From assembly GCA_018656645.1 (NCBI GenBank), contig JABHZL010000059.1, positions 1 to 32,109 on the forward strand: 32,109 nt of DNA, written 5' to 3'. Under the pieces are notes generated by a model, which made no database searches, had not been told where the DNA came from, and saw nothing but the letters and a program-made list of their open reading frames with translations. The stretch is from Phycisphaerae bacterium. GTDB lineage: Bacteria > Planctomycetota > Phycisphaerae > Phycisphaerales > SM1A02. Shown piece by piece: positions 1-22,424 of this stretch. Made by a program: the position numbers and the translations under genes. Every line of letters begins with the position of its first letter. The stretch's first letter is position 1.

Positions 1-175
1 AGGGAAGGTGGTGAAAAACCACCGCGGACGCGCCGCCGTAACGGGATTGCCAGAAATGGCTATTTCTTTCCAAAGAACCACTGCTCTTTTTTGAGTGGGA
101 AGGTAGGAAAGCAAGAAACCCCGAAGCCGGAAAACCTCACTTGTCAGTCAGTGTTACCCGCGCGAATCGGGTGGA
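1..175 (+). promoter_or_regulatory. Cobalamin riboswitch, 5' end cut by the window edge
   Basis: The aptamer landmarks of the cobalamin riboswitch family (Rfam RF00174) occur in the right order. They are the GGGAA core at 2-6, a GGTGG/CCACC hairpin at 7-23, the GCCGCCGTAACGG block around 32-44, a CCACTG...GTGGGAAGG arm at about 77-106, and the AAGCCGGAAAACCT 3' box at about 124-137. The 5' strand of the closing stem lies outside the window. Two small hairpins follow: ACCCG/CGGGT at 156-172, which may be the 3' kissing-loop stem, and TTGCCC/GGGCAA at 184-199. There is no U-tract terminator before the gene at 241, so control is more likely at ribosome access; the Shine-Dalgarno AAGGAGG lies at about 228-234. 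The 3' boundary is approximate. Confidence 0.88.
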
Positions 176-11029: not shown

Positions 11030-11102
11030 GGCGAAATAGCTCAGTTGGTAGAGCACTGCACTGAAAATGCAGGTGTCCCCGGTTCAAGTCCGGGTTTCGC
11101 CA
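11030..11102 (+). tRNA. tRNA-Phe (GAA)
   Basis: The cloverleaf is complete. The acceptor GGCGAAA pairs with TTTCGCC with discriminator A at 11102. The D arm is GCTC/GAGC, the anticodon arm CTGCA-CTGAAAA-TGCAG gives anticodon GAA, and the T arm is CCCGG-TTCAAGT-CCGGG. CCA is not encoded. It sits between the amidase gene and purU on the same strand, with no terminator before purU. Confidence 0.97.
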
Positions 11103-11138
11103 TTTCGATCTCAACCGATCGCAATCAAGGATTCAACG

Positions 11139-11996
11139 ATGAACACAAAACAAGAAGCCGTGATTCTGGTCTCCTGCCCAGATCAACTTGGACTTGTTGC
11201 ACATTTGACTGCTGCCCTGCACGAAGCTGGATGCAATATTCTTGATGCAGCCCAATACACAGACACGCTTACAAACGTTTTTATCCAACGTATTCATATT
11301 TCGTGTCCACTTACCCATAATACGAAAACACTACAAAAACACCTCCAACCAATCATCAGCGAGTTTCAAATGAAGATTCATATTCGATGGACTGATGAAA
11401 CAAAACGAGTTGCTATTTTTGTTTCAAAAGAAGACCATTGTCTCCACGACCTTCTACTCCTTCACCGAGATGGGGACTTGCACTGCTCAATTGAGATGAT
11501 TATTTCAAATCATGAAGATCTTCATGATATTGCCAAGCGATTTGGCGTTCCGTTCCACCACATACCGGTCCTACACTCTGGTGATCCAAATGCAGAACAC
11601 CAACAAATAGAATTGTTACAAACACACAGCATTGATCTCGTCGTTCTTGCTCGGTATATGAGGATTTTCAGCGACACGTTTGCGCAGAAATTTTCGGAAA
11701 AAATTATCAACATCCACCATTCGTTTTTGCCCGCATTTGCTGGTGGAAAACCGTACCACCAAGCGTTTGAAAAAGGTGTAAAACTCATTGGTGCAACAGC
11801 GCATTATGCTACAGCGGAACTCGATGAAGGTCCTATTATCGAACAAGGTATCATCAGAGTTTCACATAAAGATTCCATCAAAGAAATGATCCGCAAAGGT
11901 AGAGACATCGAACGGACTGTTCTTGCAAGAGCAGTTCGTTGGCACCTCGAAGACAGAATTATCGTACACAACAACCGTGCTATTGTTTTCTCTTAA
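11139..11996 (+). CDS. purU: Formyltetrahydrofolate deformylase PurU
   Basis: PurU hydrolyses 10-formyltetrahydrofolate to formate and tetrahydrofolate, balancing one-carbon pools and supplying formate for purine synthesis. The 285-residue protein has an N-terminal ACT regulatory domain (about 8-80, beginning VILVSCPDQLGLVAHLT) and a C-terminal formyl-transferase-fold domain (about 90-285). The catalytic set is visible in NIHHSFLPAF (Asn, His) and ATAELDEGPIIEQ (Asp). The ATG at 11139 has AAGGA seven bases upstream; an in-frame ATG at 11067 lies inside tRNA-Phe and is rejected. Only 36 nt separate it from tRNA-Phe, so it may be co-transcribed with that tRNA. Its stop overlaps the convergent gene's stop by 4 nt. 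Confidence 0.95.
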   Translation: MNTKQEAVILVSCPDQLGLVAHLTAALHEAGCNILDAAQYTDTLTNVFIQRIHISCPLTHNTKTLQKHLQPIISEFQMKIHIRWTDETKRVAIFVSKEDHCLHDLLLLHRDGDLHCSIEMIISNHEDLHDIAKRFGVPFHHIPVLHSGDPNAEHQQIELLQTHSIDLVVLARYMRIFSDTFAQKFSEKIINIHHSFLPAFAGGKPYHQAFEKGVKLIGATAHYATAELDEGPIIEQGIIRVSHKDSIKEMIRKGRDIERTVLARAVRWHLEDRIIVHNNRAIVFS

Positions 11997-12541
11997 GCAG
12001 ATTCTCGCAAACGATCCAAACGCATTTTTGTTACTAATCTGTTGATCGTATCACCAGTCACAGTTGACGTTCCCATTCCGCCAATTGGATAATGTTCTGT
12101 AAGCGCTGCAGCAAGCCGATTCTCAGTTGCCATTACAAAGTATGCGGGGCGGCAGAGTACACTCGTTGCAAACTTCAACGCTCGACGCAGGTGCTTCGGT
12201 GTTGTTGCGATCACAAGCGTTTCTCCTTCTAGGGACATCGGGAGACATCGAAACTGCCAAGCTTGTCGAGTAGTTATCATTTCCTTCGCTTCTGTCCGAG
12301 GGATCTCAACAAACGGGTCGATCGTGCGTGTGTTTTGTGCATATTGGCATGCCCATGCATCTTCAATTGCTTCAGTAGAGATACTACACAGCGACTCTGC
12401 AATTACGCCGAAAGGTCGATTTGTCTCTCGCTGCTCTCTAAGAATTGCATCGACTTGTGATTCAGTGAGCATACCTTGCTCAATAAGAACTTCACCAAGG
12501 CGAAGTGGTTTCTTCATCTTCCATGATTTATTATTTGACAT
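11993..12541 (-). CDS. Stand-alone GspE/PilB N-terminal (MshEN-type) domain protein, possible c-di-GMP receptor
   Basis: The 182-residue protein corresponds to the N-terminal domain of type II secretion/type IV pilus ATPases with no ATPase domain attached. Residues 14-37 (RLGEVLIEQG...ILREQ) fit the 24-residue MshEN c-di-GMP-binding motif RLGxxLIxxGxLxxxxVxxxLxxQ. A 5-residue spacer (38-42) and a second, diverged copy (43-66, beginning PFGVIAESL, ending Q66) follow. Residues about 77-160 match the second half of the GspE N-domain (IPRTEAKEM...CLPMSLEGETLVIATTP...). The start is at 12541; an ATG at 12517 is also possible. No pilus genes are adjacent. The role as a receptor is inference from the motif. 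Confidence 0.8.
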   Translation of the reverse strand: MSNNKSWKMKKPLRLGEVLIEQGMLTESQVDAILREQRETNRPFGVIAESLCSISTEAIEDAWACQYAQNTRTIDPFVEIPRTEAKEMITTRQAWQFRCLPMSLEGETLVIATTPKHLRRALKFATSVLCRPAYFVMATENRLAAALTEHYPIGGMGTSTVTGDTINRLVTKMRLDRLRESA

Positions 12542-12591: not shown

Positions 12592-12634
12592 AAAACCCGC
12601 CAAACGGCAATTCATGCTGATTGTGCGGGTTTTT
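12592..12634 (-). terminator. Terminator of the M29 aminopeptidase gene, possibly bidirectional
   Basis: AAAACCCGC at 12592-12600 pairs with GCGGGTTTT at 12625-12633 around a 24-nt loop, 20 nt beyond the aminopeptidase stop. In the minus direction the stem is followed by the T-rich end of the same repeat. The long loop lowers certainty. Confidence 0.65.
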
Positions 12635-19511: not shown

Positions 19512-20713
19512 ACCTTTCTGAAAAAATCGACAATTGCATCAATACTATCTTGCCCGAACTCATTAAGATTCGGCACGATCTTCACGCACATCCTGAACTT
19601 GGATACGAAGAAACCCGCACAAGTGAACTGATTAAGAAAGAACTGGCACACGCTGATGTTTCTTTTATTGACAATCTTGCTGGTGGCACAGGCGTACTTG
19701 GGCATATCGACGGAGAGGGAAACGAAGCTGTTGGCCTGCGTGCAGATATCGACGCTTTACCGATTACTGAAATCAATACATTCGATTGGAAATCATTGCA
19801 CGAAGGATGCATGCACGCATGTGGGCACGACGGACATACAACAATTCTTATTGGTGTTGCAAAAGTTTTATCTGAACTTGCAAAAGAATCAGCATTGCCT
19901 CATCCAGTCACATTCGTTTTTCAACCTGCCGAAGAAGGTGGCGGCGGCGGCAAAAGAATGGTCGAGGATGGATGCCTTGATGGATCTTGTATTGGACCGA
20001 AGGTTGCAGTGATGTACGGATTGCATGGCTGGCCACAGTGCAAAGAGAATCATGTTCAAACACGTGTTGGACCAGTCCTTGCTTCTGATATTGGCGTGAA
20101 CATTAAAATTACTGGAACAGGTGGGCACGCTGCGTTTCCACACTTTAGTCACGACCCAATTCTTTGTGCAGCAAATGTGATTACTTCGATGCAACAAATT
20201 GTTTCAAGGAACACAGACCCACTTGATTCACTTGTTGTTTCGTTGACACAAATCCATGGTGGCACTACACACAATATCATTCCAAGCAATGTGGATATCA
20301 CAGGTACTATTCGTTTTTTGCAGGATTCTACTGGCAAAATGGCAAAACGGAGAGTCAAAGAAATCGCCGAGTCAATCGCAGCTGCACACAACTGCACTGC
20401 TGAAGTCGCACTTGTCGATGGTTACCCTGTTACTCGAAATGATAAACATGCAGTTACGCACTTTTTTGAAACTGCGAATTCGGTTTTACCTGAAGAACAA
20501 GTTGGAGAATTCCCAGCACCAGTTATGGGCGGTGAAGATTTCTCTTACTACTGCAAAGAAGTTCCTTCTTGTTTTTTCATGGTCGGGCTGCTACCTGAAG
20601 GCAAAGAACAAATGCCATCACTACACCAACCAGACTTTGACTTTAACGACAACGTGATTCCAACATGCGTAAAAATGTTTTGTGAACTCGCGTTGCGTTA
20701 CAAAGGATTTTGA
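19508..20713 (+). CDS. M20D-family amidohydrolase (N-acyl-amino-acid hydrolase type)
   Basis: This 401-residue metal-dependent amidohydrolase probably removes an acyl group from an amino-acid derivative in the cytoplasm. M20D signatures are DLHAHPELGYEE (24-35), GLRADIDALPI (77-87), MHACGHDGHT with metal ligands Cys105 and His107, PAEEGGGG with catalytic and ligand glutamates 142-143, GLHGWP and PVMGGEDFSYY, plus a dimerisation lid in the middle. The exact substrate (hippurate, acetyl-amino acids, N-acetyl-diaminopimelate) cannot be decided. The ATG at 19508 overlaps the preceding stop as ATGA; an in-frame start at 19397 lies inside the previous gene and is rejected. Its 3' end overlaps the convergent HD-GYP gene by 16 nt. 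Confidence 0.92.
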   Translation: MNLSEKIDNCINTILPELIKIRHDLHAHPELGYEETRTSELIKKELAHADVSFIDNLAGGTGVLGHIDGEGNEAVGLRADIDALPITEINTFDWKSLHEGCMHACGHDGHTTILIGVAKVLSELAKESALPHPVTFVFQPAEEGGGGGKRMVEDGCLDGSCIGPKVAVMYGLHGWPQCKENHVQTRVGPVLASDIGVNIKITGTGGHAAFPHFSHDPILCAANVITSMQQIVSRNTDPLDSLVVSLTQIHGGTTHNIIPSNVDITGTIRFLQDSTGKMAKRRVKEIAESIAAAHNCTAEVALVDGYPVTRNDKHAVTHFFETANSVLPEEQVGEFPAPVMGGEDFSYYCKEVPSCFFMVGLLPEGKEQMPSLHQPDFDFNDNVIPTCVKMFCELALRYKGF

Positions 20714-22230
20714 GACGTATGTTTAGCGATCATTTGATCATACTCAGAAAAATCAAGCGTTAGAAAAACTTCAACAAGTTCAGGATCAAATTGTGAACCA
20801 GAACATTTTTGAACTTCCTCTAAAACTTCTCCTCGATCAAGCCCTTCTCGGTATGCTCTTGAAGAACACATTGCATCAAAAGCATCTGCAACTCCTAGTA
20901 AACGGCCAAAGAATGGCGTGTCTTTTTCCTTGGTTCCATCTGGATAGCCCCTGCCATCCCATCGCTCATGATGGGAACGAACACCCGGAAGCACTGTGCA
21001 AAGCTGTGGTACACCTGCAAGAATTTTTTCGCCAATGACAGGATGTTGCTTAATTCTGTCATATTCGTCGTCGGTTAATTTACCTGCTTTTCGAAGAATC
21101 GCTTCTGGAATACCTATTTTTCCAATGTCATGTACCAAACCACAAATGTGAATTTCTTCGAGGGTTGTGACTTGTACACCGACTGCCTCAGCAAGTGTTT
21201 TAGATAACCACGCAACACGTACCGAGTGACCTTGTGTGTAGGTATCTTTCGCATCGATTGCAGCAACGAGAGCTCCAACAGTTCCGAGTAATAACCCTTG
21301 CCGTTCTTCGGCATGGCGTCTTTCAATGTCAACACGCATCAAGTTCGACATTGCAAGTGCAGTTATTTCTGCAAGACCAGTACAAAACTCAACATCATCC
21401 ATCACATGCTGGCCTTGAAGTTGTCCATCGCGGTTATCTAAGTAGATACAGCCAGCTACTGCATGCCCGAGCATAATTGGAACACAAAGCGCTTCTTCGA
21501 TCGAATATTGCATGATCGACTGCGCTTGATCATCAACTACTTCCGTTCGTTGAAACCGAACGGGTTCGCCTTCAAGGGCTGCATCAAGAAGAGATCGGCT
21601 AATATTAGGAACACCATCGTTCACAATGCGACCCTTCGTTGCGAGTACTTCGACCATGCCTTCAGAACCAGCTGGCTTGACAATGGCAACATTTCCAAAT
21701 GCAGTTGCAGCTGCTGCTGCTTCAGCAACTGCTGCCGCCATTGCTACCTCTGAACCCGCTTCGTGAATTTCTCTACTGCAAGTCAATAGTGCCCTCAATT
21801 TTTCGTGGGCTAAGCCACCACCCTGTGTTTTTTCAATGCGGCGTATTGATGCCCCAGTCGCATGTAATGAATCGTCAATTGTCTGGGTTAAATTTCGTTT
21901 TTGATGTGGATCTACAACTTGAAAAGTGAATGGTTCAATGACAATCAAATCACCAGCTCTGATAGAAACTCCACGATTAGGCTCTAACCTAACACCATTG
22001 AGGGTAGTTCCATGTCGCGAACCATTGTCTTGAAGCGTCCACTTTCTACTCTTACCAACTTGGTGTGGAGTAAGAAAAGCGTGATCTCTAGATACTGTCG
22101 CGCCGGATGCCAAAATAAGATCATGCTCAGGCCGCCTGCCAATTGTTAGCATTTTGTCCCCACTTAACGCCAAAGTGAGGTTTTCTGGACCATGAATAGT
22201 CTTTAACTGGAGATCGGTACCTTCGCTCAT
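20698..22230 (-). CDS. FHA-GAF-HD-GYP signalling protein, probable c-di-GMP phosphodiesterase
   Basis: The 510-residue protein has three modules. An FHA phosphothreonine-binding domain (about 18-108) has GRRPEHDLIL, SRDH and NGSRHGTTLNG. A GAF sensor domain (about 140-300) follows. An HD-GYP phosphodiesterase domain (about 310-495) has GHSVRVA, the HD pair at 367-368 in VHDIGKIGIPE, HHERWDGRGYPDG (GYP at 428-430) and DAFDAMCSSRAYR. All HD-GYP metal-site motifs look intact, so c-di-GMP breakdown is likely, coupled to Ser/Thr kinase signalling through FHA. The ATG at 22230 begins just before the FHA fold; the frame upstream is not conserved-looking. It is divergent from rplK. Confidence 0.93.
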   Translation of the reverse strand: MSEGTDLQLKTIHGPENLTLALSGDKMLTIGRRPEHDLILASGATVSRDHAFLTPHQVGKSRKWTLQDNGSRHGTTLNGVRLEPNRGVSIRAGDLIVIEPFTFQVVDPHQKRNLTQTIDDSLHATGASIRRIEKTQGGGLAHEKLRALLTCSREIHEAGSEVAMAAAVAEAAAAATAFGNVAIVKPAGSEGMVEVLATKGRIVNDGVPNISRSLLDAALEGEPVRFQRTEVVDDQAQSIMQYSIEEALCVPIMLGHAVAGCIYLDNRDGQLQGQHVMDDVEFCTGLAEITALAMSNLMRVDIERRHAEERQGLLLGTVGALVAAIDAKDTYTQGHSVRVAWLSKTLAEAVGVQVTTLEEIHICGLVHDIGKIGIPEAILRKAGKLTDDEYDRIKQHPVIGEKILAGVPQLCTVLPGVRSHHERWDGRGYPDGTKEKDTPFFGRLLGVADAFDAMCSSRAYREGLDRGEVLEEVQKCSGSQFDPELVEVFLTLDFSEYDQMIAKHTSQNPL

Positions 22231-22281
22231 TACTAGCAATGTATCAGAAGCCCTAAATATTTGACCCACGCTCAGACTGAG

Positions 22282-22310
22282 TTGCCCAACTCTGTGGAAA
22301 TTGCTATGAT
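22282..22310 (+). promoter_or_regulatory. Promoter of the rplK-rplL operon
   Basis: TTGCCC (22282-22287) and TATGAT (22305-22310) are separated by 17 nt. The start point would fall near 22317, giving a leader of about 108 nt before rplK at 22425. This leader could hold an L1 autoregulatory site, but I could not identify one. Confidence 0.6.
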
Positions 22311-22424
22311 GCGTGGCTCGAAAGAAAACCGTTATGACCACTGTGCCGCGACCTCTGGCCGAGTTCGCTTCAAAGACCGTCTCGTAGACAATCTGGCATT
22401 GGTGGCAGGCAGGAGAAATCACAG

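Follow-up and report, generated by a model that had tools for sequence, protein, structure and literature searches.

In most bacteria, c-di-GMP enzymes outnumber the known receptors. The stretch of DNA analysed here (the window; 32,109 nucleotides from a Phycisphaerae bacterium) contains a small gene that an earlier note, made from the sequence alone, had read as a free-standing MshEN-type domain and a candidate c-di-GMP receptor. Our literature search found almost nothing published on c-di-GMP signalling in this planctomycete group, only incidental mentions, and no description of a stand-alone MshEN receptor in the papers covered, largely openly readable main texts.

A single MshEN domain without an ATPase

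The gene is read on the minus strand from an ATG at 12541 to a stop at 11993 (Table 1). Pfam MshEN (PF05157) matches residues 81-152 of the product (E 7.6e-8, 32.7 bits, above the curated cut-off of 23.1 bits), and NF053729, the 53-residue c-di-GMP_motif model of NCBIfam, matches residues 14-64 (E 7.7e-12, 44.8 bits, above its cut-off of 38 bits). Because the Pfam hit falls on the second half and the NCBIfam hit on the first, both MshEN halves are present in the solo protein. MshEN is the sole Pfam domain in the 182 aa, from which the T2SSE ATPase core (PF00437) is absent, and no effector domain was found in them. Judged by its sequence, the solo protein is one complete MshEN/GSPII domain followed only by a short C-terminal helix, and the earlier reading of a free-standing domain was borne out.

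Table 1. Features of the solo MshEN gene and its surroundings, in window positions.
Feature	Position	Strand	Basis
Stand-alone MshEN (GSPII) domain protein, 182 aa	11993..12541	-	Profile matches and orthologues
c-di-GMP motif I, residues 14-37 (RLGEVLIEQGMLTESQVDAILREQ)	12431..12502	-	9/11 strict, 11/11 relaxed
5-residue spacer, residues 38-42	12416..12430	-	Spacing as in MshE (PMC5013675)
Diverged c-di-GMP motif II, residues 43-66 (PFGVIAESLCSISTEAIEDAWACQ)	12344..12415	-	3/11 strict, 8/11 relaxed
C-terminal subdomain (MshEN_C), residues 81-152	12086..12301	-	Pfam match
Family-specific R-Q-A-W-Q-F helix, residues 92-97	12251..12268	-	Conservation in 39 representatives
C-terminal helix, residues 163-181, conserved within the genus	11999..12055	-	
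Inverted repeat AAAACCCGC...GCGGGTTTT, separating the solo gene from the M29 peptidase gene upstream of it	12593..12633	.	Read from sequence
FHA-GAF-HD-GYP protein, probable c-di-GMP phosphodiesterase (context, unlinked)	20698..22422	-	Intact HHERWDGRGYP

An AF2 model of the N-subdomain (residues 10-72) reached a pLDDT of 93.5 and forms four helices over residues 14-70. The model superposes on c-di-GMP-bound V. cholerae MshE (5htl) with an rmsd of 1.1 A over 56 columns (TM 0.81), and a ranking of folds placed c-di-GMP-bound forms above apo PilF and PilB-PilZ complexes. Foldseek E-values were weak (0.01-0.1, at a probability of 1.00) owing to the short length of the model, only 63 residues. The full-length model, with a pLDDT of 61, is not good enough to show how the subdomains are arranged; its best 20 fold matches are all MshEN/GSPII domains. 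By sequence, the closest solved structures are the GSPII domains of T. thermophilus PilF, with GSPII-B and GSPII-C nearest, and V. cholerae MshE; the c-di-GMP-bound PilF GSPII-B and MshE come closest by sequence and by fold alike.

In addition to the four-helix N-subdomain, the solo protein shares with the N-terminal domain of MshE a tandem pair of 24-residue motifs set 5 residues apart, a C-subdomain and both Gly and both Gln of the ligand site. It differs in having no ATPase, in Pro-Phe for Arg38-Leu39 and Trp for Leu58, in the Cys, Phe or Tyr that its family carries for Gly47, and in the RQAWQF helix of the C-subdomain. In this helix, R92, Q96 and F97 are invariant and Q93, A94 and W95 nearly so among 39 representatives; the ATPase MshEN copies examined do not have it. 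E. coli NfrB, a glycosyltransferase-MshEN protein with a weak NCBIfam match, likewise has MshEN as a c-di-GMP receptor outside a motor ATPase, but its MshEN is fused to the effector under its control, whereas the solo protein has no such domain.

A conserved first motif and a fixed variant of the second

Both motifs were scored, strictly and in relaxed form, at the 11 defined positions of the published pattern RLGxxhhxxGhhxxxxLxxxLxxQ (Wang et al. 2016, PMC5013675). Motif I had been described as matching at every conserved position, which holds for the relaxed pattern; under the strict one it misses at M24 and V30, both conservative changes. The spacer is present as described, and the copy that follows it is indeed diverged. 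Motif II leaves even the relaxed pattern at E49, C52 and S53, three residues around the turn between alpha3 and alpha4. It fails the strict pattern with the ligand Gly and Gln retained and the first Arg and two Leu substituted. Numbered as in MshE, the sequence carries R38P, L39F, G47C, L54I and L58W and retains G11, G40, Q32 and Q61. The solo family has lost the C-subdomain Asp with which MshE contacts guanine.

The changes from Arg-Leu-Gly to Pro-Phe-Gly and from the last Leu to Trp recur in homologues across the order. Among 66 homologues, G16, Q37 and G45 are present in 66/66, P43 in 65/66, Q66 in 64/66, and F44 and W63 each in 61/66. The earlier note had made its proposal depend on whether homologues lose the essential residues of motif II, and they do not: both Gln and both Gly are kept in essentially all, with Arg38, Leu39 and Leu58 of MshE consistently replaced by Pro, Phe and Trp. 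In 39 representatives with <70% identity to one another, G16, Q37 and G45 are each found in 39/39 and Q66 in 37/39. Mean entropy in this set is 0.52 bits at the 12 ligand-contact columns and 1.96 in the remainder of the 53-residue domain, and 0/20000 permutations were equally low; the contact set takes in residues that build helix ends, and part of this conservation may be structural. The divergence of motif II is fixed in the homologues of the order and is not decay.

Published binders tolerate non-Arg first motif residues (Lys, Leu, Pro), and hydrophobic residues at this position give higher affinity (PMC11731258). GSPII-B and GSPII-C of T. thermophilus PilF bind c-di-GMP despite K, L and P there; one GSPII-C motif begins with P335, and full-length and truncated PilF proteins bind c-di-GMP at this site at 324-460 nM (PMC11731258). 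PilF differs from the solo protein in carrying three domains in one ATPase and in having hydrophobic clusters of Leu without conserved aromatics. PilF GSPII-A is a near-motif domain which does not bind, from causes outside the motif, its groove being blocked by an N-capped, extended helix alpha1 (PMC12002112). Unlike in GSPII-A, helix alpha1 in the model of the solo protein is not extended and begins at residue 15.

An old family found in a single order

A homologue was found in 56 of the 61 genomes searched, own genome included, at E 2e-21 or better. The solo gene was not found in four of them (G008, G026, G034 and G036), and G048 has fused paralogues only and no solo copy. Across 292 phylum-wide genomes, the family profile gave strong matches (E <1e-31) inside the window's order only, and no member of the family was found outside it; in the rest of the class and phylum, matches were weak (E 3e-18 or weaker) and fell mostly in frames as long as an ATPase (550-620 aa). 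Named close relatives are Phycisphaerales/Planctomycetota metagenome bins, and no plasmid copy was found. Some orthologues score below the NF053729 cut-off.

In a 69-row tree, the 38 solo proteins form one clade (99/92). A branch (100/99.7) separates this clade, joined by second solo paralogues and REC fusions, from every ATPase and other MshEN protein sampled. Rows inside the solo clade group mostly by taxonomic family, and the clade and this grouping indicate an old, vertically inherited family rather than a broken ATPase. Compared with its two nearest orthologues, the gene has a dN/dS between 0.03 and 0.07 (about 0.05); with orthologues in nearly all relatives, this shows that the ORF is not a chance one. 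Other planctomycete MshEN proteins without an ATPase core (MshEN-PilZ, L170; MshEN-AAA_lid_14, L167; a canonical solo protein, L169) group outside the order-level clade and have no PFG, W or RQAWQF. The MshEN-PilZ protein (L170:1926-2768, G069) has 280 aa, two c-di-GMP receptor domains in a small protein.

In GC-rich genomes, many homologues are surrounded by long ORFs (775, 446 and 417 aa); these ORFs were considered as fusions and rejected as upstream read-through. Genuine REC-MshEN fusions occur in G048 only, where two receiver-MshEN(PFG type)-zinc-ribbon-like proteins, an unusual combination, lie in tandem (L070:5667-7067 and L070:7145-8494). G314 encodes a C-subdomain-only version (L164:2193-2482) in which RREAWQF is present and both c-di-GMP motifs are lost. 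In G023, an ORF (L050:2987-3610) contains FFFNDTATTE, which we take to be translated Illumina adapter; it is likely assembly contamination.

Gene neighbourhood

In the window's genus, the solo gene stands beside housekeeping genes (HflX-type GTPase, M29 peptidase, carbon-nitrogen hydrolase). The inverted repeat upstream of it (Table 1) looks terminator-like and suggests a separate transcript for the solo gene; a separate analysis reported only a weaker, overlapping stem. Given these neighbours and this repeat, the neighbourhood says little about function.

The earlier note had also pointed to a c-di-GMP phosphodiesterase (20698-22230) and a pseudopilin (1119-1850) in the window. Both are supported, the former as an HD-GYP protein with a longer frame (Table 1) and the latter as a pseudopilin-like ORF with an N-methylation signal. 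The functional tie to the solo gene that their mention implied was rejected, the genes being 8 to 10 kb off and in unrelated transcription units. A cobalamin riboswitch aptamer occupies window positions 1-137 (62 bits, gathering 31.5), and downstream of it lie two genes: 241-1122 for a 293-aa protein that looks secreted and has a weak dockerin-like end, and 1119-1850 for the prepilin-like protein. The two are possibly a B12-controlled surface protein pair. The ORF listed at 11067-11996, a formyltransferase with an ACT domain, shares its first codons with a tRNA-Phe (11030-11102), and its true start must therefore be further downstream.

c-di-GMP turnover and candidate receptors in the genome

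The genome (2.0 Mb, 98% complete) belongs to a genus with genomes of about 2 Mb. It encodes one GGDEF protein with an intact GGDEF and three HD-GYP proteins with intact signatures, and the turnover set for c-di-GMP is complete; neither EAL nor PilZ was found in this genome. GGDEF is present in 61/61 genomes, and PilZ is absent in 13/13 genomes of the genus and present in 45/48 other relatives.

The absence of a secretion ATPase, on which the earlier note had relied, holds within the window but not for the genome, where nine T2SSE-family ATPases are encoded elsewhere, four of them with MshEN sequence; the implied isolation from such motors does not stand. Three of these four also have N-subdomains that match the c-di-GMP motif model, which makes them candidate receptors beside the solo protein. 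The candidate protein receptors found in the genome are the solo protein and the pilus ATPases only. The ATPase on contig C75 has no MshEN match, and a PilB/GspE-type ATPase on contig C135 (G000; L003:226-1851) has the C half of MshEN, no N half and no c-di-GMP motifs. On contig C96 (G000; L117:4481-6112), a gene for a GAF-HD-GYP phosphodiesterase lies directly upstream of one for a PilB-type ATPase with MshEN, an arrangement that suggests local c-di-GMP control of the pilus motor.

Strong counterparts of the single cyclase occur in most of the order. Three genomes that belong to one family (G040, G044 and G052) have this counterpart next to the solo gene, no more than about 60 bp away and in convergent orientation; this adjacency is suggestive only, since it comes from a single lineage and the genes are convergent. 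Strict co-inheritance of the two was unsupported: only G026 and G036 lack both, and the solo protein occurs in seven genomes from which this cyclase is missing.

Proposed function and competing explanations

The solo protein is well supported as a candidate receptor by its profile matches, its fold, the conservation of its contact residues and its retention across the order. We consider it probably a cytoplasmic stand-alone c-di-GMP receptor and adaptor with a remodelled second half-site. One c-di-GMP would be held in the N-subdomain (residues 14-70) between the tandem motifs, its guanine edges read by the Gly backbones of G16 and G45 and its ribose-phosphates bound by Q37 and Q66. R14, V30, L34 and F44 would pack against one base and P43, L15, I59 and W63 against the other, and the packing by F44 and W63 would put one aromatic into each half-site at leucine positions of MshE. 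By analogy with the established behaviour of MshE and PilF GSPII-B, binding would shift the orientation of the C-subdomain, and its invariant RQAWQF helix would then make or break a contact with a partner protein. We infer ligand binding, c-di-GMP as the ligand and the partner, and take the subdomain switch from PilF GSPII-B. The helix is the likely partner surface, and the partner would most likely be a component of the type IV pilus or type II secretion machinery. This default guess comes from PDB complexes (PilB-PilZ, GspE-GspL/EpsL), in which proteins of that kind are what MshEN-type domains touch. The C-subdomain-only version in G314 would fit a contact role of its own for that half and hints at a ligand-independent role.

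That version also fits a different explanation, which we regard as unlikely: a degenerate MshEN that does not bind and makes protein-protein contacts only, its motif residues persisting for the fold. XpsE and PilF GSPII-A are precedents, motif II is off the published pattern in all members, and not every orthologue reaches the NCBIfam cut-off. The replacement of all three of Arg38, Leu39 and Leu58, the loss of the guanine-contacting Asp and the loose co-occurrence with the cyclase count against a receptor as well. However, G11, G40 and Q61, which are lost in XpsE, are exactly the residues that the solo family retains, the two Gln persist in 66/66 and 64/66 sequences although they have no known role in the fold, and the contact columns are the best-conserved part of the N-subdomain.

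Binding might instead involve another ligand, with F44, W63 and Pro43 giving the second half-site a new specificity, for example for a mixed or different cyclic dinucleotide. The fixation of these three residues across the order with unchanged backbone and phosphate contacts would agree with this, as would the weak binding of cGAMP of which MshEN is capable (PMC5013675), but the genomes make c-di-GMP (the GGDEF count above) and the guanine-recognising Gly backbones are kept in both half-sites, which makes such a change improbable. Least credible is a detached N-domain acting in trans on a pilus ATPase of the same cell that has none. The ATPases on C135 and C75, with an MshEN_C half only and with no MshEN match, could be taken for such motors, but the solo clade stands apart from every sampled ATPase domain (100/99.7), and the solo protein has its own C-subdomain and no linkage to ATPase genes.

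The solo MshEN family is real and conserved, and its second half-site is a fixed variant. If the solo protein is a c-di-GMP receptor, its fixed Pro/Phe/Trp changes would broaden the consensus published for binding, and as a 182-aa single-domain protein it should express easily, making ligand, affinity and partner directly testable. It is conceivable, and we offer it only tentatively, that this order-wide, vertically inherited family is a main c-di-GMP receptor of PilZ-less, streamlined planctomycetes, where it may act via a partner protein rather than a fused motor through a remodelled Pro-Phe-Gly ... Trp half-site, possibly with altered specificity.
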